Below, piece after piece: positions 4,198-25,499 of a stretch of DNA of 64,000 bases; within the stretch, counting starts at the first letter, position 1; every line of letters starts with the position of its first letter. The stretch is taken from contig NZ_JAQSDY010000032.1 in the NCBI RefSeq assembly GCF_029946145.1, positions 35,480 through 99,479 on the forward strand, read 5' to 3'. This DNA comes from Brevundimonas sp. Lineage in GTDB: Bacteria > Pseudomonadota > Alphaproteobacteria > Caulobacterales > Caulobacteraceae. Both the position numbers and the translations under genes were made by a program. The notes under the pieces are model-generated. The model searched no databases. It was not told the origin of the DNA and saw nothing but the letters and a program-made list of their open reading frames with translations.

Positions 4198-5070
4198 GTG
4201 CTCGACAAACGGCTGGATCTGGATGGCTTCGTCGCCGGCCTGCGCGACGGAATGACGATCGGAATCGGCGGCTGGGCCACGCGTCGCAAACCCATGGCCC
4301 TCGTGCACGCCATCGCGCGTTCCGACCTAAAGGACCTGACCATTGTCAGTTACGGCGGTCCGGACGTCGGCACCCTGGTGGCGTCAGGGAAGGTGAAGAA
4401 GCTGATCTTCGGCTTTGTGTCCCTGGATCACTTCCCTCTGGACCCGCATTTCCGCGCCGCCCGTCAGGCGGGCGCCCTGGAGATTCTGGAACTGGACGAG
4501 GGTCTGCTGCACTGGGGCCTGCGCGCAGCGGCGATGCGCCTGCCTTTCCTGCCAGCCCGCTTCGGCATGGCCACCGATATCCCCTCGCAAGGACTGAAGA
4601 CGGTTCAGTCCCCCTACGCCGACGGCGAGACCTTGCTGGCCATGCCTGCGATCAGGCTGGACGCAGCGATCATGCACGTGCATCGCGCGGACCAGGCGGG
4701 CAATACGTTGATCTTCAGCCCTGACCCCTTCTTCGACGATCTGATGGCGCGCGCCGCCGACACGGTCTTCGTTTCAGCCGAACAGGTGGTCGGGACCGAG
4801 GGCCTTGACCTGCCCGCCAACTCGCGCTTCCACCCTTTCGAACGTAGCGTCGTCACCGGGGTCATCGAGGCGCCGCTGGGCGCCCACCCGACCGGCGCCA
4901 CGCCCGATTACGGGATCGATATGGCCCATCTGAAAACCTACGTCGGGGCGACTTCACCGGAAGGCTGGGACGCCTATCGCGCCCGCTTCATCGATGTAAC
5001 GCCCGACGCCTACCTCGCGGCAGTCGGCGGGGCAGCCTACGTCCGCGCGCTGCCCGCGCCGGTCTATTGA
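4198..5070 (+). CDS. ipdA: CoA-transferase family alpha subunit, IpdA-like (steroid ring C opening, COCHEA-CoA hydrolase)
   Basis: GTG start; LRDGMTIGIGGWATRRKPMA...DLTIVSYGGPDVG...FGFVSLD resembles mycobacterial IpdA (Rv3551); adjacent to ipdB. Confidence 0.88.
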   Translation: MLDKRLDLDGFVAGLRDGMTIGIGGWATRRKPMALVHAIARSDLKDLTIVSYGGPDVGTLVASGKVKKLIFGFVSLDHFPLDPHFRAARQAGALEILELDEGLLHWGLRAAAMRLPFLPARFGMATDIPSQGLKTVQSPYADGETLLAMPAIRLDAAIMHVHRADQAGNTLIFSPDPFFDDLMARAADTVFVSAEQVVGTEGLDLPANSRFHPFERSVVTGVIEAPLGAHPTGATPDYGIDMAHLKTYVGATSPEGWDAYRARFIDVTPDAYLAAVGGAAYVRALPAPVY

Positions 5071-5080
5071 GGTCCGCCGA

Positions 5081-5896
5081 ATGACCCAGACACCCTATAC
5101 CTTGGCCGAACTGTGCATCGCCGCCGCCGCCGACGCCTGGCGCGATGACGGCGAGGTGCTGGCGACCGGCATCACCCTCATGCCGCGTCTGGCCGCGGGC
5201 CTGGCCAAGCTGACCGTCAATCCGGCCCTGATGCTGACCGACGGCGAGAATCATTTCGTTTCGGAACCCGTGCCTGTCGGTCCGCGAAACGGCTACGTCC
5301 CGAAGGTCGAGGGCTGGATGCCTTTCGCCCGCACCTTCGACAATCTGTGGGGCGGCAAGCGTCACGCCATGGTCGTTCCGACCCAGATCGACCGCTTCGG
5401 CCAGACCAACATCTCGGTCATTGGCGACCATGCCAGGCCCAAGGCCGCGCTCTTGGGCGCACGGGGCTATCCCGGCAATTCGATCAGCCACCCGAACAGC
5501 TATTTCGTGCCGACCCACAACCAGCGCGCCTTCGTCAGCGGAGAAGTCGATTTCGTCTGCGGCGCTGGATACAACCCCGCCCGCTGGCCCGACGGCAAGA
5601 AGCCCGGCGGTCTCGATCTGCGCATGGTCGTCACCAACCTCGCCGTGCTGGACTTCAACGGCGCCGAAAAGGCCATGCGGGTGCGCTCGCTGCACCCCGG
5701 CGTCACTTTCCAGGAGGTCCAGGACAACACCGGCTTCGTCCTGGCCCGGCCGGACGGCATCCCCGAAACCGCCCCCCCGACCGCTGAGCAGTTGTCCATC
5801 ATCCGCGACCGGCTGGACCCACACAATCTGCGCGCCACCCTGTTCAGGGACGACCCGGCCGGCGATCGACGGCTGCAACGTTCGGACGCGGCCTGA
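5081..5896 (+). CDS. ipdB: CoA-transferase family beta subunit, IpdB-like
   Basis: EGWMPFARTFDNLWGGKRHAMVVPTQIDRFGQTNIS...GARGYPGNSISHPNSYFV...LHPGVTFQEVQ resembles IpdB (Rv3552). Confidence 0.88.
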   Translation: MTQTPYTLAELCIAAAADAWRDDGEVLATGITLMPRLAAGLAKLTVNPALMLTDGENHFVSEPVPVGPRNGYVPKVEGWMPFARTFDNLWGGKRHAMVVPTQIDRFGQTNISVIGDHARPKAALLGARGYPGNSISHPNSYFVPTHNQRAFVSGEVDFVCGAGYNPARWPDGKKPGGLDLRMVVTNLAVLDFNGAEKAMRVRSLHPGVTFQEVQDNTGFVLARPDGIPETAPPTAEQLSIIRDRLDPHNLRATLFRDDPAGDRRLQRSDAA

Positions 5897-7874: not shown

Positions 7875-7887
7875 CAGGGAACCCCCA

Positions 7888-8637
7888 ATGCCCCTCCGCA
7901 CCGACATCAACGACCGCATCGGCGAGATCATCCTCGACCACCCCCCGGTCAACGCTCTGGACTCCGCACTGTGGAACGCCCTCCCGGGGCTCATCACCGA
8001 GGTCGGTTCGCGCGAGGACGTGCGCTGCGTCCTGATCCGCGCCGAGGGGCGCGGCTTCTGTGGCGGCGTCGACATCAAGGAGATGCAGGCCCATCCCGAA
8101 CGGATCGTGGCCCTCAACCGGGGCAACTACCTGACCTTCAAAGCCGTGCGCGATTGTCCGGTCCCGGTGGTGGTCGCCGCCCACGGCTTCGTCATCGGCG
8201 GCGGCATCGGCATCTGCGGCGCGGCCGATACGGTCATCGCCTCTGACGACTGCTATTTTTCCCTGCCCGAGATCGACCGGGGCGCCATGGGCGGCGCGTC
8301 GCACCTGTCGCGAATGCTGCCCCTGCCCGTCGTGCGCGCCGCCTTCTTCACCGGCGGCAAGATCACGGCCCAGGACGCCTGGCGCCTCGGCGGGGTCCAG
8401 AAGCTGGTCCCGCGTGATCAGTTGTATGCCGAAGCGCGCGCCTTCGCCGGCATCATCGCCTCCAAGAGCCGCACGGCCGTGATCCTCGCCAAACAGGCGC
8501 TGAACGGGCTGGAGCCGCGCGACGTCGACCACGGCTACCGCTTCGAACAGGGCTTCACCCTGGAAATGTACATGCACCCGGACAGCCAGGCGTCGCGCGA
8601 CGCCTTCGTCCATCAGAACCAGACCGCCAAATTCTGA
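7888..8637 (+). CDS. echA20: Enoyl-CoA hydratase family, EchA20-like (steroid D-ring opening)
   Basis: ATG at 7888; LIRAEGRGFCGGVDIKEMQ...GGGIGICGAADTVIASDD...YRFEQGFTLE matches recalled EchA20 (Rv3550) motifs. Confidence 0.85.
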   Translation: MPLRTDINDRIGEIILDHPPVNALDSALWNALPGLITEVGSREDVRCVLIRAEGRGFCGGVDIKEMQAHPERIVALNRGNYLTFKAVRDCPVPVVVAAHGFVIGGGIGICGAADTVIASDDCYFSLPEIDRGAMGGASHLSRMLPLPVVRAAFFTGGKITAQDAWRLGGVQKLVPRDQLYAEARAFAGIIASKSRTAVILAKQALNGLEPRDVDHGYRFEQGFTLEMYMHPDSQASRDAFVHQNQTAKF

Positions 8638-8647
8638 AGGTCAACCA

Positions 8648-9808: not shown

Positions 9809-9810
9809 TC

Positions 9811-10887
9811 GTGGATTTCGCCTTCTCCGACGAACAACAGGCCTTCGCCGAGGTCGTCCGCAACCTGCTGCGGGCCGAATGCACCGCCGCGCACCTGCGC
9901 CGACTGATCGACAGCGGTGCGGCCCGCGACGGCGACCGCTGGCGCCAGGTCCTCGATCTGGGCCTGACCGGCCTCATGGTCCCCGATGCCAAGGGCGGCC
10001 TCGGTCTGGATGAGACCGACTTCGTCCTGATCGCCCAAGCCTGCGGCCACGCCGCCCTGCCCGAGCCGCTCGTCGAACAGACGGGCGTGGTCCTGCCGCT
10101 ATTGGCCGCCATCGATCATCCGCGCGCTTGCGCATGGCTGGACAGGACGCTGACGGGCGAGGTGACCGTGGCTCTGAGCCACCCGTCGAACCCATTCGTA
10201 GCCGACGCCGACACGGCCGCCGCCCTGCTTCTGGTTCACGACGGCGCCCTGCATCTGGTCGAGTCCCCGGTCGTCGAGCTGATCGCCCAGCCCGGCATCG
10301 ACCCTTTCCGCCGCCTGTCGCACGTCATCTGGACGCCATCGACGCACACGCTGGTCGCGGATTCCCGGACGGCGGCCCCATTGCTGGCCACGGCTCTTGA
10401 GCGCGGCGCCATCTTCGCCGCCGCCCAGTCCATTGGACTTGCGGAGCGCAGCGTCGAACTGGCCGTCGATTATGCGAAGGAACGCATCCAGTTCGGCAAG
10501 CCCATCGGCGTCAATCAGGCGGTGAAGCATCTGCTGGCCACGGCCCAGGTGAAGATCGAATTCGCCCGACCCGTCGTCTTCGCCGCCGCCGCCGAGCGGG
10601 CTGCCGACAACGCCCTGTCGCGCGCCCGCGCCTCGCACGCCAAGCTGGCCGCCGCCGAGGCCGCGTCGCTGGCCGCCCGCACCGCCATCCAGGTGCACGG
10701 GGCCATGGGCTATTCGTGGGAAGTGGACGTCCACTTCCTGCTGAAACGCGCCCTCGCCCTCTCCGGCGTCTGGGGCGACGAAAGCTTCCACCGCGCCCGC
10801 GTCAGGGCCCACGCCATCTCAGCTGCCGACATCGACCACAGCTTCGCCTGGACCGCCCTGAAGGAAGTCGCCGCCGATGCCGCATGA
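9811..10887 (+). CDS. Acyl-CoA dehydrogenase, FadE32/FadE33-like
   Basis: 358 aa; MDFAFSDEQQAF N-terminus, YAKERIQFGKPIGVNQAVKH, AIQVHGAMGYSWEVDVHFLLKRA. Confidence 0.85.
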   Translation: MDFAFSDEQQAFAEVVRNLLRAECTAAHLRRLIDSGAARDGDRWRQVLDLGLTGLMVPDAKGGLGLDETDFVLIAQACGHAALPEPLVEQTGVVLPLLAAIDHPRACAWLDRTLTGEVTVALSHPSNPFVADADTAAALLLVHDGALHLVESPVVELIAQPGIDPFRRLSHVIWTPSTHTLVADSRTAAPLLATALERGAIFAAAQSIGLAERSVELAVDYAKERIQFGKPIGVNQAVKHLLATAQVKIEFARPVVFAAAAERAADNALSRARASHAKLAAAEAASLAARTAIQVHGAMGYSWEVDVHFLLKRALALSGVWGDESFHRARVRAHAISAADIDHSFAWTALKEVAADAA

Positions 10888-12028
10888 GGCCTATATCATC
10901 GACGCCGTCCGCACCCCTGTCGGGCGCAAGAAGGGCGGCCTGGCCCACGTCCATTCCGCCGACCTGGGCGCCCACGTCCTGTCGGCCCTGATGGCCCGCG
11001 TTGGCGTCGATCCCGCCGCCGTCGAGGACGTGGTGTTCGGCTGCTGCGACACCTTGGGGTCTCAGGCCGGCGACGTCGCCCGAACCTGCTGGCTGGCCGC
11101 GGGCCTGCCCGAACATGTGCCCGGCGTGACCATCGACCGCCAGTGCGGCTCGGCTCAGCAGGCCGTGCATTTCGCGACCCAGGGCGTAATGAGCGGGACG
11201 CAGGATCTGGTCGTCGCCGGCGGGGTCCAGAACATGAACGCCATCCCGATCTCGGCCGCCATGCTGGCCGGTCAGGCCTATGGTTTCGCCGACCCTTTCC
11301 GTGGTTCGAACGGTTGGTTGAAGCGATACGGCGATCAGGAGGTCAGCCAGTTCCGCTCGGCCGAAATGATCGCCGACAGGTGGGAAATCAGCCGCACCGA
11401 GATGGAGCAGTTCGCACTGGAAAGCCATCAGCGCGCGCTGGACGCCGCCGCGGCGGGGCGCTTCGACAACGAGATCATCCCGCTGGAAGACGTCACGCGC
11501 GACGAGACCCCGCGTCAGACCTCGCTGGAGAAGATGGCGACCCTGGCGCCGCTGATCCCCGACGGCCGCATCACCGCCGCCGTGGCCAGCCAGACCGCCG
11601 ACGCCGCCGCCGCTCTGCTGCTCGCCTCTCCCAGGGCCGTGAAGGATCACGGGCTCACGCCGCGGGCCCGCGTCCACCACATCTCCGTGCGCGCCGACGA
11701 TCCGATCTGGATGCTGACCGCGCCGATCTCGGCCACCCGCCATGCCCTCGAAAAGACGGGCTTGAGGATTGAGGACGTCGATCTGTTCGAATGCAACGAA
11801 GCCTTCGCATCGGTCGCCATGGCCTGGATGAAGGAGCTCGGCGTTCCCCGCGACCGGGTCAACGTCAACGGCGGGGCCATCGCCCTGGGCCACCCACTGG
11901 GGGCGACCGGGGCGCGCATCATGACCACCCTGCTCAACGAGCTTGAGCGCCGGGGCGGCCGATACGCCCTGCAGACCATGTGCGAAGGCGGCGGTCAGGC
12001 CAATGTCACCATCATCGAGCGGCTGTGA
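10877..12028 (+). CDS. fadA6: Thiolase, FadA6-like
   Basis: DRQCGSAQQ, GGVQNMNAIPIS, NGGAIALGHPLGATGAR, LQTMCEGGGQANVTIIERL; near-colinear with recalled FadA6 (Rv3556c). Confidence 0.9.
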   Translation: MPHEAYIIDAVRTPVGRKKGGLAHVHSADLGAHVLSALMARVGVDPAAVEDVVFGCCDTLGSQAGDVARTCWLAAGLPEHVPGVTIDRQCGSAQQAVHFATQGVMSGTQDLVVAGGVQNMNAIPISAAMLAGQAYGFADPFRGSNGWLKRYGDQEVSQFRSAEMIADRWEISRTEMEQFALESHQRALDAAAAGRFDNEIIPLEDVTRDETPRQTSLEKMATLAPLIPDGRITAAVASQTADAAAALLLASPRAVKDHGLTPRARVHHISVRADDPIWMLTAPISATRHALEKTGLRIEDVDLFECNEAFASVAMAWMKELGVPRDRVNVNGGAIALGHPLGATGARIMTTLLNELERRGGRYALQTMCEGGGQANVTIIERL

Positions 12029-12039
12029 GGGAAGCGTCC

Positions 12040-12951
12040 ATGTTCGGTATCTGTGAAGGCCGGGTGGTCATCGTCACGGGCGCAGGTCGGGGGTTGGGCC
12101 GCGCCTATGCCCTTGCCTTGGCGGCCGAGGGAGCCAGGGTCATGGTCAATGATCTGGACGTCGGCGCGCACGGCGAGGCCGGTCAGACCACCGGCGCGGC
12201 CCAGGCGGTAGTCGATCAGATCGTCGCGGCTGGCGGCGAGGCCATCGCCAACAGCGACGACGTTACTGAGGTCGAAGCGGGCCAGCGCATGGTCCGGACG
12301 GCGCTCGACGCCTTCGGCGACCTGCACGCCGTGGTCAACAACGCCGGCTTTGTCCGCGACCGGATGTTCGTCTCTTGCACGCCCGACGAATGGGACGCCG
12401 TACTGCGCGTCCACCTGCGCGGCCATTTCTGCCTCAGCCGCGCCGCCGTCGACTACTGGCGGGCCAAGCAGAAACAGGGGCATGACCCCGACGCCCGCAT
12501 CATCAACACCTCGTCCGGCGCGGGCCTTCAGGGCTCGATCGGCCAGAGCGCCTATTCGGCGGCCAAGGGGGGCATCGCCAGCCTGACCCTGGTCCAGGCC
12601 GCGGAGTTGGGCCGTTACGGCATCACCGCCAACGCCTTGGCCCCGGCGGCGCGGACCCGGATGACCGAGACCGCCTTCGCCGACGCCATGCAGGCGCCTG
12701 AGGACGGATTCGACGCCAACGACCCCGCCAATGTCGCCCCCACCGTGGTCTGGCTGGCCAGCGCGGATTCGGCCGGAGTGACGGGACAGGTGTTCGAGCT
12801 GCAGGGCGGGCGGATCATGCTGTCCGAAGGCTGGCGCAACGGCCCCGCCATAGACCAGGGACGCCGCTGGGATCCGTCAGAGGTCGGCCCGGTGGTCAGC
12901 GAGCTGCTGGCCCGGCGCACCCCGCCACAACCCGTCTATGGCGCCGGCTGA
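12040..12951 (+). CDS. SDR, Rv3548c-like steroid-cluster dehydrogenase
   Basis: ATG 12040; CEGRVVIVTGAGRGLGRAYALA, NTSSGAGLQGSIGQSAYSAAKGG, LSEGWRNGPAIDQGRRWDPSEVGPVV similar to Rv3548c. Confidence 0.87.
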   Translation: MFGICEGRVVIVTGAGRGLGRAYALALAAEGARVMVNDLDVGAHGEAGQTTGAAQAVVDQIVAAGGEAIANSDDVTEVEAGQRMVRTALDAFGDLHAVVNNAGFVRDRMFVSCTPDEWDAVLRVHLRGHFCLSRAAVDYWRAKQKQGHDPDARIINTSSGAGLQGSIGQSAYSAAKGGIASLTLVQAAELGRYGITANALAPAARTRMTETAFADAMQAPEDGFDANDPANVAPTVVWLASADSAGVTGQVFELQGGRIMLSEGWRNGPAIDQGRRWDPSEVGPVVSELLARRTPPQPVYGAG

Positions 12952-12961
12952 GGGCGGGCGC

Positions 12962-14122
12962 ATGAACATCACCCTTACCGACGAACAACAGGCCATCGCC
13001 GAAAGCGCCCGGGCGTTTCTGGACGAACACGGCAGTTCCGCGCGCCTGCGCGCCGCCATCGAATCCGCCGACGGCTGGGATCCCGAACAGTGGCGCGCCA
13101 TGGCCCAGGAGATGGGTTGGCTGGGCGTCGCTGCGCCCGAGAGGTTCGGCGGCAGCGACCTCGGCCTGGTCGAACTGGCCATCCTGCATGAAGAGGTCGG
13201 CCGCACTCTGACGGCGGCCCCGCTGTTTCCGACCCTCGGCCTGGCTTTGCCCGCCCTCATGTCGGCGGGCTGCGAGGCGCGACAGGCGGAGTTCCTGCCC
13301 CGCCTGATCGAGGGCGGGATCCGCGCCGCCGTCTGTCTGACCGGCGCCACCGGTGCGCCCGTCCCGTCCGACGTCGCGATCCGTCTGGAGCCGGACAGCG
13401 ACGGCTGGCGGCTGAACGGAACCGCCGAATACGTGCTGATGGGCCACGCCGCCAACCTGCTGATCGTCATCGCGCGTACGGCTGGCACGACGGGCTGGGA
13501 CGGTCTCAGCCTGCTCGCTGTCGCCGCCGACACGCCGGGGATCAGCATCGAGCGCCTGACCAGTCTCGATCTGACCCGGCCGTTCAGCCGCGTGCACTTC
13601 CATCAGGCCCGCGTCGGAGACGACTCCCTCTTGGGCGCGCCCGGGACGGCCGCCGCCGCCGTGCGCCGGATGCTGGCGGTCGGAACCGTGATGCTGGCCG
13701 CCGAACAGTTGGGCGGGGCCGAGCGGGCGCTGGAAATCAGCACCGAATACGCCAAACAGCGCGTTCAGTTCGGCCGGGTCATCGGCTCGTTCCAGGCCAT
13801 CAAGCACAAGCTGGCCGACATGATGCTGGCCGTCGAATCCGCCCGCTCGGCCCTCTACTACGCCGTGCGCCTGCTGGACGTGCCCGACGCGATGGCCGAG
13901 GCGGCCGCCACCGCCGGAGCCTGCTGTTCCGAAGCCTTCCTGCAATGCGCGGGGGACACCATCCAGATCCATGGCGGCATCGGCTTCACCTGGGAGCACG
14001 ACGCCCATCTCTATTTCAAGCGCGCCCGCGCCAGCGCCGCCCTGCTGGGCGGCCCGTCCCATCACTATGAATCCGTCGCCAGCCTGATCGGTCTGGACGA
14101 GGCTCCAGAAACCAGCGCATGA
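12962..14122 (+). CDS. Acyl-CoA dehydrogenase, FadE32/FadE33-like
   Basis: ATG 12962; MNITLTDEQQAIAESARAF, YAKQRVQFGRVIGSFQAIKHKLADM, IQIHGGIGFTWEHDAHLYFKRA. Confidence 0.86.
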   Translation: MNITLTDEQQAIAESARAFLDEHGSSARLRAAIESADGWDPEQWRAMAQEMGWLGVAAPERFGGSDLGLVELAILHEEVGRTLTAAPLFPTLGLALPALMSAGCEARQAEFLPRLIEGGIRAAVCLTGATGAPVPSDVAIRLEPDSDGWRLNGTAEYVLMGHAANLLIVIARTAGTTGWDGLSLLAVAADTPGISIERLTSLDLTRPFSRVHFHQARVGDDSLLGAPGTAAAAVRRMLAVGTVMLAAEQLGGAERALEISTEYAKQRVQFGRVIGSFQAIKHKLADMMLAVESARSALYYAVRLLDVPDAMAEAAATAGACCSEAFLQCAGDTIQIHGGIGFTWEHDAHLYFKRARASAALLGGPSHHYESVASLIGLDEAPETSA

Positions 14123-14898
14123 CCCCTCCTCCGCCCTATCCGGTCGCCCGCAACCTGTTGCAGGGCAAGACGGCCGTCATCACCGCCGCCGCCGGCACCG
14201 GCATCGGCTTTTCCGTTGCCAGGCGCTTCGCCGAGGAAGGCGCGAGCCTGCTGATCAGCGATCTGCATGAGCGCCGCCTGAACGAGGCCGCCGACGCGAT
14301 CGAGGCCGCTGTCGGACGACGCCCGGCGACCCAGCTCTGCAACGTCACCATCGAGGCGGAGGTCCAGGCCCTCGCCGCCCGTTCGGTCGCGGAACTCGGC
14401 CGCGTCGACGTTCTGGTCAACAATGCCGGTCTAGGCGGCTCGGCCGCCGTGGTCGACATGGCCGACGACGAGTGGGGACGCGTCCTCGACGTGACCCTGA
14501 CCAGCGTCTTCCGCATGAGCCGCGCCTTCCTGCCGATCATGTACGCGCAAGGCTCGGGGGCCGTGATCAACAACGCCTCGGTCCTGGGCTGGCGGGCGCA
14601 GAAGCTTCAGGCCCACTATGCCGCCGCCAAGGCCGGCGTCATGGCCTTTACCCGCTGTTCGGCGCTGGAAGCGGCCGACCACGGCGTCCGCGTCAACGCC
14701 GTCGCCCCCTCCATCGCCATGCACGCCTTCCTGGCGAAGGTGACGACGCCGGAACTGCTCGAGACCCTCGCCGCGCAGGAGGCGTTCGGCCGCCCGGCGG
14801 AAGTTTGGGAAGTGGCCAACGCCATCCTGTTCCTGGCCTCGGACCTGTCCTCCTACATGACCGGCGAAGTGCTGTCGGTCTCCAGCCAGCGGGCCTGA
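14119..14898 (+). CDS. ipdF: SDR, IpdF-like (HIP pathway dehydrogenase)
   Basis: GKTAVITAAAGTGIGFSVARRF, NNAGLGGSAAVVDMADDEWGRVLDVTLTSVFR, NNASVLGWRAQKLQAHYAAAKAGVMAFTRCSALEA, SSYMTGEVLSVSSQRA; very similar to recalled IpdF (Rv3559c). Confidence 0.9.
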   Translation: MTPPPPYPVARNLLQGKTAVITAAAGTGIGFSVARRFAEEGASLLISDLHERRLNEAADAIEAAVGRRPATQLCNVTIEAEVQALAARSVAELGRVDVLVNNAGLGGSAAVVDMADDEWGRVLDVTLTSVFRMSRAFLPIMYAQGSGAVINNASVLGWRAQKLQAHYAAAKAGVMAFTRCSALEAADHGVRVNAVAPSIAMHAFLAKVTTPELLETLAAQEAFGRPAEVWEVANAILFLASDLSSYMTGEVLSVSSQRA

Positions 14899-14901
14899 TA
14901 C

Positions 14902-15357
14902 ATGGTCGTGTTCGAGACGGCGAACGAACTGCTGGGCCGGGTCGACGCGCCGCTGGGCGTGAGCGACTGGGTGCGGATTGATCAGGACCGGATCGACGGC
15001 TTCGCTCAGGTCACCGGCGACGACCAGTGGATCCACGTCGATCCGGAACGCGCCAGGACGGGCCCGTTCGGCGCGACGATCGCCCACGGCTATCTGACGG
15101 TCTCCCTGGCCAACCTCTTCCTTCCCCAGATCATCGAGGTGCGGGGCATTTCGATGGGGGTGAACGTGGGTTGCGACAACATCCGCTTCCTCGCCCCCGT
15201 CCGGGTCGGATCGCGCCTGCGCGGTTCGGGTCTGCTGCTCCGCGCCGAAGAGGCCAAGGGGGGGTCTGTTCAGGCGACGGTCCGCATCACCGTCGAGATC
15301 GAAGGCGAGGCCAGGCCGGCCTGCGTTCTCGACGCCATCAGTCGCTACTATCCGTAA
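14902..15357 (+). CDS. MaoC-like (R)-hydratase (hot-dog fold)
   Basis: 151 aa; FAQVTGDDQWIHVDPERARTGPFGATIAHGYLTVSL is the MaoC hydratase motif. Confidence 0.92.
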   Translation: MVVFETANELLGRVDAPLGVSDWVRIDQDRIDGFAQVTGDDQWIHVDPERARTGPFGATIAHGYLTVSLANLFLPQIIEVRGISMGVNVGCDNIRFLAPVRVGSRLRGSGLLLRAEEAKGGSVQATVRITVEIEGEARPACVLDAISRYYP

Positions 15358-15366
15358 AGAGATTTC

Positions 15367-16569
15367 ATGCGCCAAGCCGTCATCGTCAGCGCCGCCCGCA
15401 CCCCGATCGCCAAGGCCTATCGCGGCGCCTTTAACGACACCGAAGCCACGGCCCTGTCCGGCCATGTCGTAGCCGAGGCCGTGAGGCGGGCGGGCCTGGA
15501 CCCCGCCAGCATCGAGGACGTCATCGTCGGCTGCGCCGCCCAGCAGGGCACCCAGGGCTACAACATCGGCCGCCTGACCGCCGCCGCGGCCGGCTTTCCC
15601 GACAGCGTCGCGGGCATGGCCCTGGACCGGATGTGCGCCTCGGGCCTGATGGCCATCGCCACGGCCTCGAAACAGATCAGCGACGACGGCATGGAGGTCG
15701 TTGTCGCGGGGGGGGTCGAATCGATCACCCTGACCCAGAACAAGCACAAGAACGCCTATCGCGCCCGCAACGAGAGCGTCATCGCCCGTTCGCCGCGCAT
15801 GTATCTGCCGATGATCGAGACGGCCGAGATCGTCGCCGACCGCTACGGGATCAGTCGCGAGGCGCAGGACCGGTATGGTTTCGAGAGCCACCAGCGCACT
15901 GCGGCCGCCCAGGCCGCCGGTCGCTTCGCCGCCGAACTGGCGCCGCTGACGACGCGCAAACAGGTGGTCGACAAGGCCACTGGCGCGATCAGCCATGAGA
16001 CGGTCACCCTCACCGCCGACGAGGGCCCGCGCGCCTCGACCACGCTCGAGGACCTGGCCCGGCTGGAGCCGGTCTTCAAGGATGGCGAGATCATCAAACA
16101 GGGCCGCCACATCACGGCAGGAAACGCCTCGCAGCTGTCCGACGGCGCCGCCGCGGTGGTCCTGATGGAGGCCGCCGCCGCCGCCCGCGCCGGCCTGACG
16201 CCCCTCGGCGCCTGTCTGGGCATGAGCGTCGCGGGCTGCGGTCCCGACGAAATGGGCATCGGCCCTGTCTTCGCCGTGCCCCGGCTTCTGGCCCGCCATG
16301 GGCTCAAGGTGTCTGACATCGACCTGTGGGAGTTGAACGAGGCCTTTGCCTGCCAGGCGGTCTATTGTCGCGACACCTTGGGAATCGATCCGGACCTGTT
16401 CAATGTCGACGGCGGGGCCATCGCGGTAGGCCATCCGTTCGGCATGACCGGTGTGCGCACCGCCGCTCACGCGTTGTTTGAAGGCAAGCGTCGCGGCGTC
16501 AAACGCGCCGTGGTGACCATGTGCGTCGGGGGCGGCATGGGCGCCGCCGCCCTGTTCGAGGTGTATTGA
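15367..16569 (+). CDS. Acetyl-CoA C-acyltransferase (thiolase)
   Basis: 400 aa; [50 protein letters not shown]. Confidence 0.93.
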
Positions 16570-16892
16570 TGGCCCAGATCTTCGTGACCCAGCAGAACGG
16601 GGAGTCGCTGACGTTGGAGGCCCAGCCCGGCCGCCGCCTGATGGAAGTGCTGCGCGACGGAGGAACCACGGTCGAGGGCACCTGCGGCGGCGCCTGCTCG
16701 TGCGGCAGCTGCCATGTCTATGTCGAGGAGGCCTGGCTGGCCGAGCTGACCGAGCCGAAGGACGAAGAGCGCGAGATGATCGAGGCCATCGGCGAGGTGA
16801 TCGAGGTCCGTCCCAACTCTCGCCTCGCCTGCCAGATCCAGATGAGCGACGCCCTGGACGGCCTGGCCCTGACCATCGCCGAAGCCATATAG
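16569..16892 (+). CDS. 2Fe-2S ferredoxin, adrenodoxin type
   Basis: ATG 16569 overlaps thiolase stop (TGATG); CGGACSCGSCHVYV plus later RLACQI cysteine. Confidence 0.9.
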   Translation: MAQIFVTQQNGESLTLEAQPGRRLMEVLRDGGTTVEGTCGGACSCGSCHVYVEEAWLAELTEPKDEEREMIEAIGEVIEVRPNSRLACQIQMSDALDGLALTIAEAI

Positions 16893-16901
16893 GGGGCTGG
16901 A

Positions 16902-18083
16902 ATGAGCCGTAATTTCGCACCCGAACACGAGGGTTTCCGCCAACAGGTCGCGACCTGGCTGGATGACCAGCTGTCCGGTCCCTTCGCTCCCCTCCGCGGG
17001 CTGAACAATCACGTCGACGCCATTCCGGAACGCCGGGCGTGGGAAGCGGCGCTGGGCAAGGCGCGCTATGGCTGCATCGGCTGGCCCGAGGCCTGGGGCG
17101 GTCGCGACGCCAGCATCGCCGAACAGGTCATCTTCGCCGAGGAATACGCCCGCGCCAAAGCCCCCTCGCGCATCGGTCACATCGGCATCGAACTGGCTGG
17201 TCCGACCATACTGCTGCACGGCACGGAAAAGCAGAAGAAGCAGTTCCTGCCCGGCATCGCCTCTGGCGCCGACATCTGGTGCCAGGGCTATTCGGAGCCG
17301 AACGCCGGGTCCGACCTGTCGAATGTGCGCACGACCGCTTGGCTGAAGAACGGCCGTTGGATCATCAACGGCCAGAAGGTCTGGACATCGATGGCGCAGT
17401 TCTCGGACTGGGTCTTCGTCATCTGCCGCGCCGATTCCGGCACGCGCGGCGCCAGCGGCCTCGCCTATCTTCTGGTGCCCATGGATCAACCGGGCGTCAC
17501 CATCCGGCCCATCCGCCAGATGACCGGCGAGGCCGAGTTCAATGAGGTCTTCTTCGACAACGCTGAAACAGCCGCCGAGAACATTGTCGGCCAGCCGGGC
17601 GAAGGCTGGAAGGTCGCCATGGCCACCCTCGCCTTCGAGCGCGGCGTCTCGACTCTCGGCCAGCAGATGCATTTCCGCAACGACCTGGATGAGTTGGTCG
17701 CGCTGGCGAAGGCCAACGGCGCGGCGCGCTCGCCCCTGATCCGCCAGCGATTGGCCAAGGCCCATGTCGGCCTGACCGTCATGCGCGCCAGCGCCCTGCG
17801 GATGCTGGCCAACAAGGACCCGCAGACGCCGACTTCCGGCGCCTATACCTACAAGCTCTACTGGGCCAACTGGCGTCGCTCGCTGGGCGAGCTGGCTATG
17901 GATGTTCAGGGTCTGCCCGGTCAGGTCGGGGAAGGTGAAGCCGATTTCAGTGCCTTGACCAAGATGCATCTGATGTCGCGCGCCGAGACCATCTACGCCG
18001 GCACCAACCAGATCCAGCGCAACATCATAGCCGAGCGCAGCCTCGGCCTGCCCCGTGAAGCCCGCGGCGCCGAGCGCGGCTGA
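16902..18083 (+). CDS. fadE30: Acyl-CoA dehydrogenase, FadE30-like
   Basis: GYSEPNAGSDLSNVRTTA, NGQKVWTSMAQFSDW, FERGVSTLGQQMHF, AETIYAGTNQIQRNIIAERSLGLPRE resemble FadE30 (Rv3560c). Confidence 0.87.
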   Translation: MSRNFAPEHEGFRQQVATWLDDQLSGPFAPLRGLNNHVDAIPERRAWEAALGKARYGCIGWPEAWGGRDASIAEQVIFAEEYARAKAPSRIGHIGIELAGPTILLHGTEKQKKQFLPGIASGADIWCQGYSEPNAGSDLSNVRTTAWLKNGRWIINGQKVWTSMAQFSDWVFVICRADSGTRGASGLAYLLVPMDQPGVTIRPIRQMTGEAEFNEVFFDNAETAAENIVGQPGEGWKVAMATLAFERGVSTLGQQMHFRNDLDELVALAKANGAARSPLIRQRLAKAHVGLTVMRASALRMLANKDPQTPTSGAYTYKLYWANWRRSLGELAMDVQGLPGQVGEGEADFSALTKMHLMSRAETIYAGTNQIQRNIIAERSLGLPREARGAERG

Positions 18084-18202: not shown

Positions 18203-18970
18203 TCAGACCAGATCGAGGAAGGAGGGTCGCTCTCCGCCGCCGTCGACGGCCAGCCGCGCGCCGCTGACGTAGGACGCCAGCGGCGACGCGAAAAAGAGGA
18301 CGGCGTTGGCGATGTCACGCCCGGCGCCCATCCGCTTCAGCGGCAAAGCCTCAGCGATCGCGCCATGACCCGCGCCGTAATGATCCGTGGCGCCTTCGGT
18401 GGCGATCAGGCCGACGATGATGGCATTGACTCTAATCTTCGGCCCCCACTCCATCGCCAGGCTTTGGGTCAGGTTGATCAGCCCCGCCTTGGCCGCCCCA
18501 TAGATCGCCGTGCCCGGCGAAGGCCTGACGCCCGCGACGCTGCATATGTTGACGATGCTCCCGCCGTTCGGCTGCGCCTGCATATGCCGCCAGGCAGCCT
18601 GCGAGACGTGCAGGGGCGCCATCAGGTTCAGGGCCACGATCGCGTCGCTGAAGCGCGGCGAGGCCGTAGAGGCGGCGGCGGCAGGGGAGCCGCCGGCGTT
18701 GTTGACCACGATATCGAGCCGGCCATGGCGCTCGACCACGCCGTCGACCATGGTCCGCACCTGATCTGCGGCCCGCACGTCGCAAGCCGTGAACTCGGCC
18801 GTCCGGCTGTCATGTGAAGGCAGGGTCTCCGGTTGGTTGCGGCCGCAAACCACCACGCGGCATCCGGCCTCGAGCAGCGCCTGGGCTATGGCCTTGCCGA
18901 TTCCCTTGGCGCCGCCCGTCACAAGGGCGACCTGGCCCGACAGATCGACCGTGACCGCGCCCTCACCCAT
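18203..18970 (-). CDS. SDR family oxidoreductase (Rv3549c-like position)
   Basis: ATG at 18970 (MGEGAVTVDLSGQVALVTGGAKGIGKAIAQALLEAG); YGAAKAG, NNAGG; start overlaps the fadD3-like stop by 8 bp. Confidence 0.88.
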   Translation of the reverse strand: MGEGAVTVDLSGQVALVTGGAKGIGKAIAQALLEAGCRVVVCGRNQPETLPSHDSRTAEFTACDVRAADQVRTMVDGVVERHGRLDIVVNNAGGSPAAAASTASPRFSDAIVALNLMAPLHVSQAAWRHMQAQPNGGSIVNICSVAGVRPSPGTAIYGAAKAGLINLTQSLAMEWGPKIRVNAIIVGLIATEGATDHYGAGHGAIAEALPLKRMGAGRDIANAVLFFASPLASYVSGARLAVDGGGERPSFLDLV

Positions 18971-20513
18971 GGCGCGCGCCTTCATTCCCGGCCATGGCGG
19001 CCAGCAGGAATTTCTGCACCTTGCCCGCAGCATTGACGGGCAGAGCCTCGACGAGCTCAAAGGCGCGCGGCGCCTTGTAGTTGGCCATGTTGGCGCGGCA
19101 CCATTGGCAGATCTCCTCCGCAGTGGCCTCGGCCCCGGCGCGCAGGACGATAAAGGCCTTGCCGATCTCGCCCAGACGCTCGTCCGGCGTCCCGATGACC
19201 GCCACCTGGGCGATAGCCGGATGAGCCGACAGGATGCGCTCGATCTCGGCCGGATAGCAGTTGAAGCCGCCACTTATGTACATGTCCTTCATCCGGTCCG
19301 TGACCCGCAGATAGCCGTCGGCGTCGAAACAGCCGATGTCGCCGGTGTGCAGCCATCCTTGAGCGTCCACCGCCTCGGCCGTCGCCTCCGGGTCTTCGAA
19401 ATAGCCGGCCATGACGTTGAATCCGCGCACCCAGATCTCACCCTCCCGTCCGGGCGCTACCGACTCTCCGAGGCGATTGACGCACTTCACCTCGACGCCC
19501 GGGATCGGCCTGCCGCAGCTGGTGGCGATGCGTTCCACGCCATCGCCCATCTGGCTCATCGTCACCATGCCCGAACTTTCGGTCAGACCATAGGCGGTCA
19601 GGACGTTGCGGATGCCCAGTTCGTCCTGCATCCGCTTGACCAGCGACGGCGCCACCGACGCGGCTCCGGTCACGGCGACCCGGATCGACGACAGGGTCAC
19701 GCCGGTCTTGGCGCTGCTGGTCAGCAACTGCTGGAAGATGGTCGGCGGCCCCGGCAGGACGGTGATGCCCTCGCCCTCGACCAGGTCGACGACGCGCGCC
19801 GGATCGAAGGTCGCCATCGGATAGGCCGTCGCCCCCTTCAGCAGGCAGGCCAACCAGCCGGCCTTGTAGCCGAAGGTATGGAAAAACGGATTGACGATCA
19901 GATAGCGGTCGCCTTCGGTCAGACCGGCGCAATGGGCCCAGCAGGTGAAGGCCTGCACGCTCTGGGCGTGGCCGCTGACCACGCCCTTGGGATGGCCTGT
20001 CGTGCCCGAGGTGAACAGAATGTCGGCGGGGTCATCGCCGCCGACGGCCAGCATGGCGGCGCGGGCGCGGTCCAGGCACCGCCCCGTCGCGGCGAAGGCG
20101 TTCCAGTCGCCGTCCAGCGTCAGGACTCGCTCCAGATGGGGCAGGTCCAGGCCATCCAGCAGAGTGCGATAATCCTGGCCCAGGAAATCGCCGACCGTCA
20201 GCAGAATGCGGGCCCGGGTCTTGTTGAGGATGTATTGCGCCTCAAGCCCCTTCATCCGCGTGTTCATGGTCACGACCACCCCGCCGGCCGACTGGACCGA
20301 CAGACAGGCGACGATCCATTCCGCACTGTTCGGCGCCCAGATCGCCGCGCGGTCACCGGGGGTCAGGCCCGCCTCGATCAGGGCCGCCGCGCCGTGCAGA
20401 ACGCGCTGCTCCAGCTGGGCGAAGGTCAGCCGTTCGCGGTCGACTATGGCCAGGGCGTCCCCGAACCTGGCGGCGGCGTCGATCACCGCCTGCGGCAGGG
20501 TCGAGACGCTCAT
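18963..20513 (-). CDS. fadD3: Acyl-CoA synthetase, FadD3-like (HIP-CoA ligase)
   Basis: DILFTSGTTGHPKGVVSGHAQS AMP-binding motif; INPFFHTFGYKAGWLACLLKGAT-type segment; DRMKDMYISGGFNCYPAEIER; resembles FadD3 (Rv3561). Confidence 0.87.
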   Translation of the reverse strand: MSVSTLPQAVIDAAARFGDALAIVDRERLTFAQLEQRVLHGAAALIEAGLTPGDRAAIWAPNSAEWIVACLSVQSAGGVVVTMNTRMKGLEAQYILNKTRARILLTVGDFLGQDYRTLLDGLDLPHLERVLTLDGDWNAFAATGRCLDRARAAMLAVGGDDPADILFTSGTTGHPKGVVSGHAQSVQAFTCWAHCAGLTEGDRYLIVNPFFHTFGYKAGWLACLLKGATAYPMATFDPARVVDLVEGEGITVLPGPPTIFQQLLTSSAKTGVTLSSIRVAVTGAASVAPSLVKRMQDELGIRNVLTAYGLTESSGMVTMSQMGDGVERIATSCGRPIPGVEVKCVNRLGESVAPGREGEIWVRGFNVMAGYFEDPEATAEAVDAQGWLHTGDIGCFDADGYLRVTDRMKDMYISGGFNCYPAEIERILSAHPAIAQVAVIGTPDERLGEIGKAFIVLRAGAEATAEEICQWCRANMANYKAPRAFELVEALPVNAAGKVQKFLLAAMAGNEGARHG

Positions 20514-21913
20514 GTCTTCTTCTTCTCGTGCCACTCGCCCATCTCGATCATGGCGGCGCGATAGGGCTTGCGCGCCAGGACGAACATCAGCGCCACCGCG
20601 GGTCCGATGATCGCCGGCAGGATGGCCAGAGAATAGCGCAGGGCGCCGTCGTCGTGGAAGACGAACTGGGTCATGGCGGCGATGACGCTGGAGCCCAGGG
20701 CGGTGCCGACCAGGGTGACACACAGCAACATCAGGGCGGTCATCTGGCCGCGCAGACGGCTGGGCGTGATGTCCTGAAGCGAGGCAAGGGCGACGCTGTT
20801 GGTGCCTTGGCCGATGAAGGTGGCGATACCCATCAGCAGCAGGGCGCCGCCCGCCGTCGGCATCAGCGGGCCGACGACCAGGGGCGCGACCTTCACCAGG
20901 GTGACCCAGGTCATGATGTTGAGGTTGGCCGCCGGGTGGCCGCGACGCATGAAAAAGCCCGAGAACCAGCCGCCGGTCAGATTGCCCAGTCCGCCGCAGA
21001 CGATCATCAGGATGCCGAAGGAATAGCCCGCCTCGGTGGCGGTCATCCCATAGGTGCGGATCAGGAAGGTCGGGTACCAGATGGCCGTACCGATCGCGAG
21101 CATCCCCAACAGGGACACCGACCCGATCAGCGACGAATAGACCTTCCAGCGGTGCGCCAGGAAGCCGCCGGTTTCACGCAGGGTCATTCGCTGGACGCCG
21201 ATCACCGCCGTGGGCGACGCATGTCGCTGGGGCTCGCGGATCAGGGCCACCAGGACCGCGACCAGCAGTCCCGGCAGGCCGACGATGAAGAACACCATCT
21301 GCCAGGGCTGCACCAGGCCGATGACCGGCAGGATGACCGCGCCGTAGGCCTTGGCCGCCTGCAGGACATAGGCGCCGATGACCAGAGCCAGACCGCCGCC
21401 GACAGGGTAGCCAAGGGCGAAGACGCTGATCGCGAAGGCGCGGCGCCTGGGCTCGAAATAATCGCTGATCAGGGAATAGGCCGTCGGACCCAGGGTCGAT
21501 TCACCGATGCCGACGGCGACCCGCGCGGCGAACAGGTGGCCGAAGCTCCGCGACAGACCACTGGCCGCCGTGGCCAGACACCAGAGGACGATGCCGCCCG
21601 CCAGAAGCTTGCCGCGATTGCGACCGTTGTCGACGATGCGCCCGATGGGCACGGCCGCCACGGCGACCAGAACCACAGTGGCGAAACCCTGCAGCAGGCT
21701 GATCTGGAAGTCGTCCAGCTTCAGGTCCTGACGGACGTCCGCGACCATCAAGGTCATGACCTTGGCGTCGATCGCCGCGATCGTATAGCAGACGAAAAGA
21801 AGGATAACGACCATCCACGAATAGACGACCGAGGGCGGCTTCTGGACCATCGTCGCCGGCTCATCTTCAGGAAGCACACGAATTACTGGCGCATCATCTA
21901 GGACGGTCATCAA
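20510..21913 (-). CDS. MFS transporter
   Basis: 467 aa polytopic; PIGRIVDNGRNRGKLLAGG, ISDYFEPRRRAFAISVF; ATGA overlap with fadD3-like start. Confidence 0.87.
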   Translation of the reverse strand: MMTVLDDAPVIRVLPEDEPATMVQKPPSVVYSWMVVILLFVCYTIAAIDAKVMTLMVADVRQDLKLDDFQISLLQGFATVVLVAVAAVPIGRIVDNGRNRGKLLAGGIVLWCLATAASGLSRSFGHLFAARVAVGIGESTLGPTAYSLISDYFEPRRRAFAISVFALGYPVGGGLALVIGAYVLQAAKAYGAVILPVIGLVQPWQMVFFIVGLPGLLVAVLVALIREPQRHASPTAVIGVQRMTLRETGGFLAHRWKVYSSLIGSVSLLGMLAIGTAIWYPTFLIRTYGMTATEAGYSFGILMIVCGGLGNLTGGWFSGFFMRRGHPAANLNIMTWVTLVKVAPLVVGPLMPTAGGALLLMGIATFIGQGTNSVALASLQDITPSRLRGQMTALMLLCVTLVGTALGSSVIAAMTQFVFHDDGALRYSLAILPAIIGPAVALMFVLARKPYRAAMIEMGEWHEKKKT

Positions 21914-22034: not shown

Positions 22035-22730
22035 TCATCTTTCGATCTGGCCCAGATTGGCGTGCAGCACCGCCCCGTTGAGCGCCGGGCTGTCGGCGCA
22101 AAAGCGCGCGATCTCCGCGATCTCCTCGGGTTCCAGCAACCGGCCGGCGGTGATCATGGCCGTGATCGAGCCCACCGCGTCGCCGACGTGGGCGCGCAGC
22201 ATTGCCGTGTCGGTGAAGCCGGGGCAGATGCAGGCCGTATGGACGCCACTGCCCGCCAGATCCTGACAGGTCGCACGCATCAGGCCGATCATGCCGTGCT
22301 TGCTGGTGACGTAGGAGGCGGCGCCGGGCGCCGCCTTTTCCGCCAGGGTCGAGCCGACATAGAGGATGGAGGAGCCCGACCCCATCACCGGAATCAGCTC
22401 GTGGTTCAGCGCCTGGGGCGCCGCCAGATTGGCGCTGAGAACCGCCTGAAGATCGCGCGCCGTCAGGCTGCTTACCGTGTCGCGTCGATGCACGGCGGCG
22501 TTATGGATCAGGACGGTCCGATCCCAGCTCACCGCACGCTCGGTCAGTACGACCGCCGCTCTCTCTACCGAAGCCAGTTCGGTAATGTCGACCGCCAGAT
22601 GTTCGACTCCCGGCGCCGTTGGTGCGGATCGCGACAGGCTGACGACCTCATAGCCCGACCGCTGGAACAGGCGCGCGGTCGCCAGGCCGATCCCGCGGCT
22701 GCCGCCCGTCACCACCACGCCGCGCCTCAT
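22035..22730 (-). CDS. SDR family oxidoreductase, coupled to the PTPS-like gene
   Basis: MRRGVVVTGGSRGIGLATARLF, HNAAVH, SYVTSKHGMIGLMRA; ATG at 22730 overlaps the upstream stop (ATGA). Confidence 0.86.
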   Translation of the reverse strand: MRRGVVVTGGSRGIGLATARLFQRSGYEVVSLSRSAPTAPGVEHLAVDITELASVERAAVVLTERAVSWDRTVLIHNAAVHRRDTVSSLTARDLQAVLSANLAAPQALNHELIPVMGSGSSILYVGSTLAEKAAPGAASYVTSKHGMIGLMRATCQDLAGSGVHTACICPGFTDTAMLRAHVGDAVGSITAMITAGRLLEPEEIAEIARFCADSPALNGAVLHANLGQIER

Positions 22731-23278
22731 GCGCCGACGTCCCGCCAGCGGCACTGGGCTGACTGGCCCGGACCAGACGAGACCTCCAGCGCGATCTCGG
22801 TTACGCCCCAGCGCGCCGACCAGGCCTCCTGCCCCACCAGCCGGTTCAGCAGGTAGGCGGCCAGTTCCTCGACCGTCGTATTGCGAATGGGCAGCAGCCG
22901 GACATCGCCCGCCGGCAGACGGAATTCATCCTCGCCGAAGACGATCACCAGGCTTCGGCCGAGGGTGCTGATGGTCAGGGACGGCACCAGCGTGGGGATC
23001 AGGACATACTCGTCCAGCTCTTGGCACAGCGCCCGAAGAGCTCGCTTTATGATGTTATAATCTAACGTCATCCCGTTGTTTTCGACACGGGTGGTGATGA
23101 CGGCCGCGACATTGAAATTATGGCCGTGCAGGCGTTCTCGCGCGCCGTCGGCGAACAGCGTGAAATGTCCGGCGGAGAATTTGATGTCCTCCTTGTCGAT
23201 CCGGATCGAGCACTGCTGGACCGGAACCGGCGCGAGCTCGGGCGAGCGCCTTTCCGATGCCGTCACCATCCCCATCAT
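22727..23278 (-). CDS. PTPS/QueD (COG0720)-superfamily protein with non-canonical active-site residues
   Basis: IKFSAGHFTLF, ERLHGHNFNVAAVI, GMTLDYNIIKRAL, NTTVEELAAYLLNRL are superfamily hallmarks; Cys of CxxxHGH is Arg, LDH is LDE. Confidence 0.8.
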   Translation of the reverse strand: MMGMVTASERRSPELAPVPVQQCSIRIDKEDIKFSAGHFTLFADGARERLHGHNFNVAAVITTRVENNGMTLDYNIIKRALRALCQELDEYVLIPTLVPSLTISTLGRSLVIVFGEDEFRLPAGDVRLLPIRNTTVEELAAYLLNRLVGQEAWSARWGVTEIALEVSSGPGQSAQCRWRDVGA

Positions 23279-23318: not shown

Positions 23319-24320
23319 CTATTCGGCCGCGACGCGCGCGGCGGGGTCGCCGTCAAACTCGTAGAACTGTTCGAAATACTCGCGGAAACGCAGGACCGGC
23401 CCGTCGCCGTCGCAGAGCAGCGGGCGGGCGCGGTGCACCTTGTGATGCCAGATCGGAATATCGCCCTCGACGCCCGACTGGCCGATGATGCCGGCGATTG
23501 AGCGGCGGATCATCTCGTTCTCGGGCGCGCCCTCGGGGAATTTCGGGTGGCGGAACTCGAAACGCAGCTCGACCTTGTCGTGCTCGACCGGCGTGGCCAG
23601 CACCTGAAGCAGCAGGTCCGCCATGCCCTTGAAGCGTGTCGACTTCTGACCCGCGCCGGTCTGAAGCGTTCGCACCTCGGTATCCAGGGTGCGGACCGTG
23701 CCGTCCGGCAGATCCATGGTGCGCTGGCCAGCCGCCAGGCTCCGGCGGACATGGCCCTCATAGTGGCTCTCGCCCTCGGGGACGGCGTCCATCTTGTGCA
23801 CGTACTTGAAGTGGGCCAGGTCGACGCCGTTCTCGGCGATCTCCTGCGGGTTGCTGTCAAAGGTCCACTGATAGCGGATGGGCGCGCCCCAATCGGGCGA
23901 CGTCACCTCGTCCAGCACCTCCACCTCGAACATCGGGGCCGCGCCTTGCGGATGATACCACGCCCAGACCACGCCGTTGGTTTCGGTGATCGCAAAGGTC
24001 TTCAGGCAGCCGGGCTTGCGCGCCGCCGGCGGAATGATGCGCGCATAGGGGATATCCTTGCAGGCGCCGGAAAGGTCGAAAGCCCAGGAGTGGAAGGGGC
24101 AGCGAAGGGTCTCGCCCTCGACAAACCCGCCATGGCCGATATGGGCGCCCAGGTGCGGGCAATAGGCCTCGGCCAGGCCGGCGGCGCCCCCTTCGGTTCG
24201 ATACAGAACCAGGTCCTCGCCGAAATAGCGGACCGGCTTGACGTCGCCCGGCTCCAGCTCGTCCGAATAGGAGACAAAGAACCAACCGAAGGGAATCGGC
24301 ATGGGGAATCGATCGACCAT
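23319..24320 (-). CDS. Rieske 2Fe-2S oxygenase (KshA / DAF-36-like steroid oxygenase group)
   Basis: CPHLGAHIGHGGFVEGETLRCPFHSWAFD Rieske CxH-x16-CxxH; ENGVDLAHFKYVHKM mononuclear iron region. Confidence 0.85.
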   Translation of the reverse strand: MVDRFPMPIPFGWFFVSYSDELEPGDVKPVRYFGEDLVLYRTEGGAAGLAEAYCPHLGAHIGHGGFVEGETLRCPFHSWAFDLSGACKDIPYARIIPPAARKPGCLKTFAITETNGVVWAWYHPQGAAPMFEVEVLDEVTSPDWGAPIRYQWTFDSNPQEIAENGVDLAHFKYVHKMDAVPEGESHYEGHVRRSLAAGQRTMDLPDGTVRTLDTEVRTLQTGAGQKSTRFKGMADLLLQVLATPVEHDKVELRFEFRHPKFPEGAPENEMIRRSIAGIIGQSGVEGDIPIWHHKVHRARPLLCDGDGPVLRFREYFEQFYEFDGDPAARVAAE

Positions 24321-24488
24321 GGGTTTTCCTCGCAAAGCGCCGGTTTGCCCGACGTCTAAAATTGAACCATAGAAGCCCCTGCCCGCCCTGGGCGGAGATG
24401 ACTGAGCCCGCACGTTATCAAGATCAGACGCAGCGATAAGGCGTCGTGGTTACACTGAGCGTTCGCGCGAGCGGACAATGGCCCCGGC

Positions 24489-25499
24489 TTATCGGTCGAC
24501 CTCGGCGACATGCGTCTGCTCGGCGGGCCCGCCGGCGAGGAATACGTCCAACTCGGCCAGCGAGGTCTGCATCCACGGGCGCAGTTGGGTCCGGGCGAAG
24601 CGGCTGGACAGGAAATCCAGCAGCAGCCTCAGCGTCGCCGGCACCGGGGTTCCGGGCGCGAAAATGGCCCACGCTTCGCGATCGTAATAGCTCCACTCGT
24701 CCTCGACGGCGACCAGGGCTCCCGACGCCAATTCGCTGCGCACGAAGGCGATCGGCAACTGGGCGATGCCGAGGCCGCGGACGGCCGCCACGCGCAGCGC
24801 CGCGCCCTTGTTGCTCTTCCAGCGACCGCTGACCCGGACCTTTTCCGCACCGTCGCTGGAGTTGAACCACCAGTGTCCGCTCAAGTCGGACAGACAGGCA
24901 TGGTTCTTCAGGTCCGCGATCCCCTTGGGCACGCCACGCTCGGCCAGATAGGCGGGCGAGGCGCACAGGCAGAAGGACAGATATCCGATGCGGGCGGCCC
25001 TCAGGCTGGAGTCGATCAGGTCGCCATAGCGGATGGCGACATCGAAATCCTCGCCGATCAGATCGACCTCGCGCGAACCCGCATGAATCTCGATCCCCAC
25101 GCCCGTATACTGGCATGCGAAGTCGGCGATGACGGCCGAAATGAAGTTAACGTCGAAAGTGTCGTTCAGCGACACTTTCAGCTTGCCCGTGGGCGTCTGC
25201 TGCATCTGGGCCGCTTCATGGCTGGCCACGGCGAGCGAGCGGCGCATCTCCCGGCATGAGGCGTAGAATCGCTCGCCTATGGCTGTCATCGAGACCTGAC
25301 GCGTTGTGCGTTTCAGCAGCTGAACGCCCAGACGGGTCTCCAGCTCACTGATCCGCTTGCTGACGAAGGATTTCGAGGCGCCCAATTGGTCGGCGGCGGC
25401 GGTGAAACTCCCCGTCTCCACCACCGAAATATATTCTTCGATACCGTCCCAGACAGAAATCACAGCCTCTCCCGACGCCTTAACCGCCCTTCGCCTCAC
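24489..25499 (-). CDS. LysR-family transcriptional regulator
   Basis: IEEYISVVETGSFTAAADQLGASKSFVSKRISELETRLGVQLLKRTTRQVSMTAIGERFY HTH; true start may be slightly internal. Confidence 0.92.
   Translation of the reverse strand: MRRRAVKASGEAVISVWDGIEEYISVVETGSFTAAADQLGASKSFVSKRISELETRLGVQLLKRTTRQVSMTAIGERFYASCREMRRSLAVASHEAAQMQQTPTGKLKVSLNDTFDVNFISAVIADFACQYTGVGIEIHAGSREVDLIGEDFDVAIRYGDLIDSSLRAARIGYLSFCLCASPAYLAERGVPKGIADLKNHACLSDLSGHWWFNSSDGAEKVRVSGRWKSNKGAALRVAAVRGLGIAQLPIAFVRSELASGALVAVEDEWSYYDREAWAIFAPGTPVPATLRLLLDFLSSRFARTQLRPWMQTSLAELDVFLAGGPAEQTHVAEVDR

Follow-up and report, generated by a model that had tools for sequence, protein, structure and literature searches.

How far a PTPS-like protein can depart from the known active sites of its superfamily and still belong to a working enzyme is the question raised by one gene in the window, the whole 64,000-nucleotide stretch of Brevundimonas DNA analysed here. 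COG0720 exemplifies over-annotation, most of its members being labelled QueD or PTPS, and the original prediction set this one apart from both canonical QueD and simple PTPS-III. The open reading frame is uninterrupted, starts with ATG and encodes 183 amino acids. Its product matches PF01242 with 54.7 bits (cut-off 22.4), which places it in the PTPS superfamily (PF01242/COG0720), and scores 50.1 bits against the QueD equivalog TIGR03367, below the cut-off of 89.25. The intact zinc pattern, the Cys-to-Arg exchange with ExxHGH, the LDE in place of LDH and the C-terminal EVSSGPGQS on which that prediction was built are all present (FSAGHF, RERLHGHNF, ELDEYVLIP, EVSSGPGQS).

Motifs were counted in an alignment of 48 family members and compared with ten sister sequences. 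The zinc ligands His38, His51 and His53, Arg47, Glu48 of ExxHGH and Glu137 of the TxE motif are invariant (48/48). Position 90, occupied by the LDH His in canonical enzymes, is never His and mostly Glu, and the pterin-anchor position holds Glu in none of the 48 members, in contrast to 10/10 sister sequences and Plasmodium PTPS. Arg with ExxHGH had been put forward as unusual; as aligned, it is a known form and the exact arrangement of Plasmodium PTPS-III, which carries FRETLHGH and needs its Glu for making 6-hydroxymethyl-dihydropterin (PMC2229834). The real oddity of the Brevundimonas protein is thus the loss of the LDH His and, above all, of the pterin-anchor Glu. Its VSSGPGQ takes the place of VSESPSQ in Plasmodium PTPS, and the C-terminal strand shows no gap when the family profile is aligned to the Plasmodium one, Ser168 falling on the anchor Glu; we therefore regard the anchor as lost and not as displaced but still present, the outcome that would have spoken against the original prediction. 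In T-fold enzymes this Glu is the established pterin anchor (Glu133 in the rat enzyme, Glu110 in QueD). Glu165 was rejected as a displaced anchor, since its position is not conserved (Lys or other residues in the family) and the HMM alignments show no gap around it. A single MAFFT run, in which the short QueD C-terminus was shifted, put QueD Thr-Ser-Gly on Ser-Ser-Gly and was distrusted. Because the substitutions recur in alpha- and gammaproteobacterial homologues, and dN/dS among the three Brevundimonas copies is 0.13-0.15, indicating purifying selection, they reflect neither chance nor decay, and the protein is not a degenerate QueD. Collectively, the 48 sequences form a distinct, conserved PTPS (COG0720) subfamily in which the anchor Glu and the LDH His are gone and the three zinc His persist along with the Glu residues of ExxHGH and TxE.

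Features of the PTPS-like gene and its surroundings; positions are those of the window, counts refer to the 48 aligned family members
Feature	Position	Strand	Remarks
PTPS-superfamily protein, ExxHGH type, 183 aa, without LDH His and C-terminal pterin-anchor Glu	22727..23278	(-)	
Arg47 (Cys place of CxxxHGH) and Glu48 (ExxHGH, presumed general base) codons	23135..23140	(-)	48/48; align with RE of Plasmodium FRETLHGH
His51-Gly-His53 codons, zinc ligands	23120..23128	(-)	kept 48/48
His38 codon, third zinc ligand	23165-23167	(-)	kept 48/48
Asp89-Glu90 codons, replacing catalytic Asp-His of LDH	23009..23014	(-)	Asp 36/48; His at 90 in 0/48
Ser168 codon, replacing pterin-anchor Glu	22775..22777	(-)	Ser 44, Thr 2, Asn 1, Ala 1
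Partner SDR, NADP-type motif, full Asn-Ser-Tyr-Lys tetrad	22035..22730	(-)	start inside PTPS stop codon (ATGA overlap)
KshA-type Rieske oxygenase	23319..24335	(-)	40 bp upstream of PTPS; ORF open to 24413, start inferred from locus L007
LysR regulator, first gene of syntenic block	24489..25499	(-)	
MFS transporter	20510..21913	(-)	
FadD3-family acyl-CoA ligase	18963..20513	(-)	NF005801 705 bits (cut-off 657); start inferred, ORF open to 20723
Second operon SDR	18203..18970	(-)	NF005893 360 bits (cut-off 255); start inferred, ORF open to 19273
CoA-transferase alpha and beta, IpdA/IpdB-like	4198..5896	(+)	260 and 191 bits to 6co6/6con chains

In a maximum-likelihood tree the members, at least 48 sequences as a lower bound of clade size, form one clade (support 89/89), and QueD is split off at 100/99. 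The clade's neighbours in the tree are Plasmodium PTPS and the sister sequences linked to FolE2 or FolB, the order of the sisters being unsure, with some long branches. The best solved relatives are likewise the Plasmodium enzymes (2a0s, 1y13; E about 5e-20), with 150 residues aligned; the aligned stretch takes in a long insertion following LDH that is missing from QueD. An AF2 model of the protein (pLDDT 90.6, pTM 0.83) has its closest fold in Plasmodium PTPS (rmsd 1.4-1.8 Å, TM 0.81-0.92) and deviates from QueD by about 4.9 Å, overall values for QueD and human PTPS being about 4-6 Å. Sequence, predicted fold and tree all place the family beside the PTPS-III/Plasmodium-like lineage and far from QueD.

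Its distribution is patchy. Of the 22 relatives returned by a contig-library scan, one belongs to Brevundimonas terrae; the others are gammaproteobacterial or labelled only Proteobacteria. Profile searches found the family in 27 of 369 Gammaproteobacteria (7%) at 165-265 bits, followed after a gap by ten sisters at 82-120 bits and by QueD at no more than 43 bits; among 399 genomes drawn across the phylum only the window's own carries it, and among 249 Caulobacteraceae it occurs in three, all Brevundimonas. The plasmids, phages and viral contigs searched yielded zero relatives. In the tree the Brevundimonas pair falls within gammaproteobacterial sequences, with poor support for its exact place, and the GC content of the gene (0.634) is below that of the window (0.681). 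Nesting, patchy spread and lower GC together suggest that the gene was gained horizontally, and the PTPS-like gene and its adjacent SDR gene probably came from a gammaproteobacterium. In the open literature searched, an earlier description of the subfamily or of the PTPS-SDR module was absent, and a prior sighting under another label is possible; the bacterial subfamily is thus apparently undescribed so far.

The gene had been placed inside a steroid operon, and this setting is plausible. FadD3 lies above its NCBIfam cut-off, and the Rieske protein matches PF19298 (104 bits) and the Rieske domain (70 bits) as well as KshA in the PDB. The CoA-transferase subunits, whose structural matches 6co6/6con we take to be IpdAB, sit in an adjoining plus-strand catabolic block (4198-18083), and the window also encodes thiolases and acyl-CoA dehydrogenases. 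On these gene assignments a steroid C/D-ring catabolic operon is likely, and three Brevundimonas share synteny over the block LysR-Rieske-PTPS-SDR-MFS-FadD3-SDR. Elsewhere in the window (34493-36007) a tryptophan halogenase-like protein was recognised by eye. As a defining role, the steroid setting did not hold up outside Brevundimonas, where the neighbouring genes differ and it is the adjacent SDR that recurs as partner. KshA-type genes are found in 14/23 loci-derived genomes, a set biased towards few lineages; despite this first figure, a general steroid role was rejected on an unbiased sample, in which strong KshA-type Rieske matches occur in 1/26 genomes with the PTPS-like gene and 1/26 controls, and many family-bearing genomes are without any KshA match. 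Since KshA-type genes are unassociated with the family outside Brevundimonas, the steroid operon is a local setting, one that was probably acquired.

The family is genetically paired with one specific SDR. Most of the 22 PTPS loci carry the same SDR family beside or near the PTPS-like gene, with 45-54% identity to the window's SDR, and the tetrad N109/S135/Y148/K152 is invariant in 14/14 partner-type SDRs. In the unbiased sample this SDR is present in 12/26 genomes with the PTPS-like gene vs 1/29 without it (Fisher p 2.5e-4, uncorrected for relatedness). It is missing from about half of the sampled member genomes, and one genome (G469, locus L176), which has four KshA-type genes, carries a partner-type SDR without PTPS, adjoining genes of the acyl-CoA dehydrogenase, ligase and thiolase types; both observations weigh against the pterin-type reading favoured below. 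By similarity the partner SDR is equally near to sepiapterin/pteridine reductases and FabG-type SDRs and is not recognisably a sepiapterin reductase. Two loci hold a queuosine-precursor transporter (TIGR00697) between PTPS and SDR (L151 by profile, L154 by sight), and two contigs of one genome (L152, L179) seem to be the halves of such an arrangement split by a contig end.

Pterin- and folate-related genes recur around the family and its sisters. A pteridine reductase lies near the PTPS-like gene at L155 (364 bits, above cut-off) and, by sight, at L156 and L157; the neighbours of all three include a COG1565-type methyltransferase. FolD is found near PTPS at L009. Sister-group neighbours include FolE2 (L143), a FolB-type gene (L148) and a dihydropteroate-synthase-like protein (L144). 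FolK near L012 and L027 carries little weight, as it lies within a panB-folK-pcnB cluster, which is common in this class. The aromatic amino acid hydroxylase family is present in 16/34 member genomes vs 4/30 controls (p 0.006), a weak excess confounded by relatedness. Three genomes (G804, G708, G595; loci L171, L172, L174) encode a divergent hydroxylase-like protein of ~575 aa in an apparent homogentisate cluster, and a fourth (G432, L173) a similar protein of 565 aa; the type is absent from the 30 control genomes.

Member genomes also retain the conventional enzymes. FolB is present in 21/23, the window's included, the two without it perhaps being incomplete assemblies, and most have a separate QueD-type or tandem PTPS gene. 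The window's own genome has two other QueD-like genes beside queC, the latter recognised by eye; in these queC-queD pairs (L001 on contig C29, L002 on C26) the QueD-like proteins are without the CxxxHGH Cys (SRRIHGH, YRRIHGH) and keep LDH. The same genome holds three divergent PTPS-superfamily genes (L003, L004 and L006 on C14, C10 and C29) with CxxxHGY (SHCHLLHGY or SHCAMLHGY), which resemble the CxxxHGY 'PTPS-II-like' cluster (PMC5445326); those at L003 and L004 adjoin transposase-like ORFs. Six member genomes (G436, G444, G447, G449, G450, G451) encode proteins of about 280-307 aa with PTPS-family matches, in several of these genomes two in one protein (tandem PTPS), and in all but G444 a standard QueD match was not seen. 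Motifs, tree, FolB and the two additional QueD-like genes bear out the view that the protein fits neither canonical QueD nor simple PTPS-III.

What the enzyme does can be weighed against this background. The reading we tentatively favour, at somewhat less than an even chance, is a modified pterin-type reaction by the PTPS-like enzyme followed by reduction by the SDR. The protein would be an active zinc enzyme whose small-molecule substrate binds the zinc through its side chain, with Glu48 as the putative general base acting there; this substrate would most likely be a pterin or a similar heterocycle, bound in an altered manner. A carbonyl of the product would be reduced by the translationally coupled, NADPH-type SDR, as in 6-pyruvoyl-tetrahydropterin synthase/sepiapterin reductase. 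In Brevundimonas, the pair placed in the steroid C/D-ring operon might serve cofactor supply or a side reaction and not a general steroid step. The retained zinc site, Glu base and TxE motif point to an active PTPS-type enzyme and, together with the pterin/folate neighbours and the weak hydroxylase excess, lead us to favour a novel pterin-type reaction over a step in steroid degradation. The loss of the anchor residue in every member argues against an ordinary pterin substrate, and the SDR's equal resemblance to FabG-type enzymes also counts against this reading. A bolder proposal, which we consider possible and on the doubtful side, is a PTPS branch without anchor Glu and Asp-His that retains zinc and the Glu base and, with its own SDR, has a substrate beyond the known pterins, the two enzymes forming a module that moves between Gamma- and Alphaproteobacteria. 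The same lost anchor leads to the main rival, by which the substrate of enzyme and SDR would lie outside the pterins, for instance a fragment of the steroid rings or its CoA ester, or some other carbonyl compound of catabolism, and would be converted through zinc/Glu-driven enolisation or retro-aldol cleavage and subsequent reduction. The fixed operon of the three Brevundimonas, the window copy beside IpdAB-type genes, some gammaproteobacterial copies with enoyl-CoA hydratases and an amidohydrolase in the vicinity, and the unaccompanied SDR in the acyl-CoA cluster of G469 would fit such chemistry; the missing KshA association, the pterin-enzyme features retained in the active site and the pterin genes adjoining several members and sisters stand against it, and we regard it as clearly unlikely.

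Absence of two canonical catalytic and anchoring residues from every member would also suit a non-catalytic T-fold protein with a role in binding, sensing or scaffolding and a structural zinc, but the zinc ligands are invariant together with R47, E137 and the ExxHGH Glu that is catalytic in Plasmodium (PMC2229834), making this improbable. A diverged QueD or deazapurine (queuosine precursor) enzyme, to which the transporter might point, since two loci have it between PTPS and SDR and others next to PTPS, is distinctly improbable; we rejected a queuosine role on the missing Cys and LDH, the separate QueD-type genes and the distance from QueD in tree, fold and profile score. Very improbable is a PTPS-III bypass of FolB that tolerates the other substitutions: ExxHGH and the nearest structures agree with it, but FolB is present in nearly all member genomes, on which ground it was rejected, and the LDH His and anchor Glu, both found in Plasmodium, are lost. 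We retain the modified pterin-type reaction with SDR reduction as the preferred reading.

The subfamily is widespread and cleanly definable, matches the defining residues of none of the subfamilies checked and comes with a ready-made partner gene, offering a compact case for testing how pterin enzymes of the T-fold type may change substrate or chemistry. It also cautions that the motif alone is insufficient to class ExxHGH proteins as folate-bypass enzymes. CxxxHGH of QueD/PTPS-I is replaced by RERLHGH, with Arg at the Cys place in 48/48, and CxxxxxHGH, the PTPS-II motif (PMC5041015), is missing from the family motif alignment. ExxHGH of PTPS-III is found in 48/48, without the other marks of that class (replacement of FolB; Asp-His and anchor Glu). 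FGPAQ, the PTPS-IV signature (PMC5445326), is absent, such a gene standing separately at L143.

Compared with known systems, the Brevundimonas protein shares with Plasmodium PTPS (PTPS-III; 2a0s, 1y13, 3lze) the fold, RE-xx-HGH, the TxE-type Glu and the insert after LDH, and differs in Glu for the LDH His, Ser for the anchor Glu, the SDR partner and genomes that keep FolB. With QueD/PTPS-I (E. coli, 4ntk) it has in common the T-fold, three zinc His and the PT-x-E Glu, but it is without the Cys, LDH His and anchor Glu and belongs to a separate clade; no queC, queE or queF was recognised among the family's neighbours. PTPS-II with sepiapterin reductase likewise couples a PTPS-fold enzyme to an NADPH-type SDR, whereas here CxxxxxHGH is absent and the partner is not recognisable as sepiapterin reductase. 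Five sister loci (L141, L144, L145, L147, L150) lie beside dihydropteroate-synthase-like, DUF447-like, MfnB-like and amino-acid-kinase genes, apparently clusters for tetrahydromethanopterin/methanofuran synthesis; these tetrahydromethanopterin-type sister PTPS resemble the family in lineage, ExxHGH and the missing usual-order LDH dyad, but differ by CExxHGH and by a retained anchor Glu (VEEAD). The FolE2-linked sisters (L142, L143) match it in KERLHGH and WDE for LDH, and differ in keeping the anchor Glu (DESRGQ), the L143 PTPS lying directly behind FolE2.
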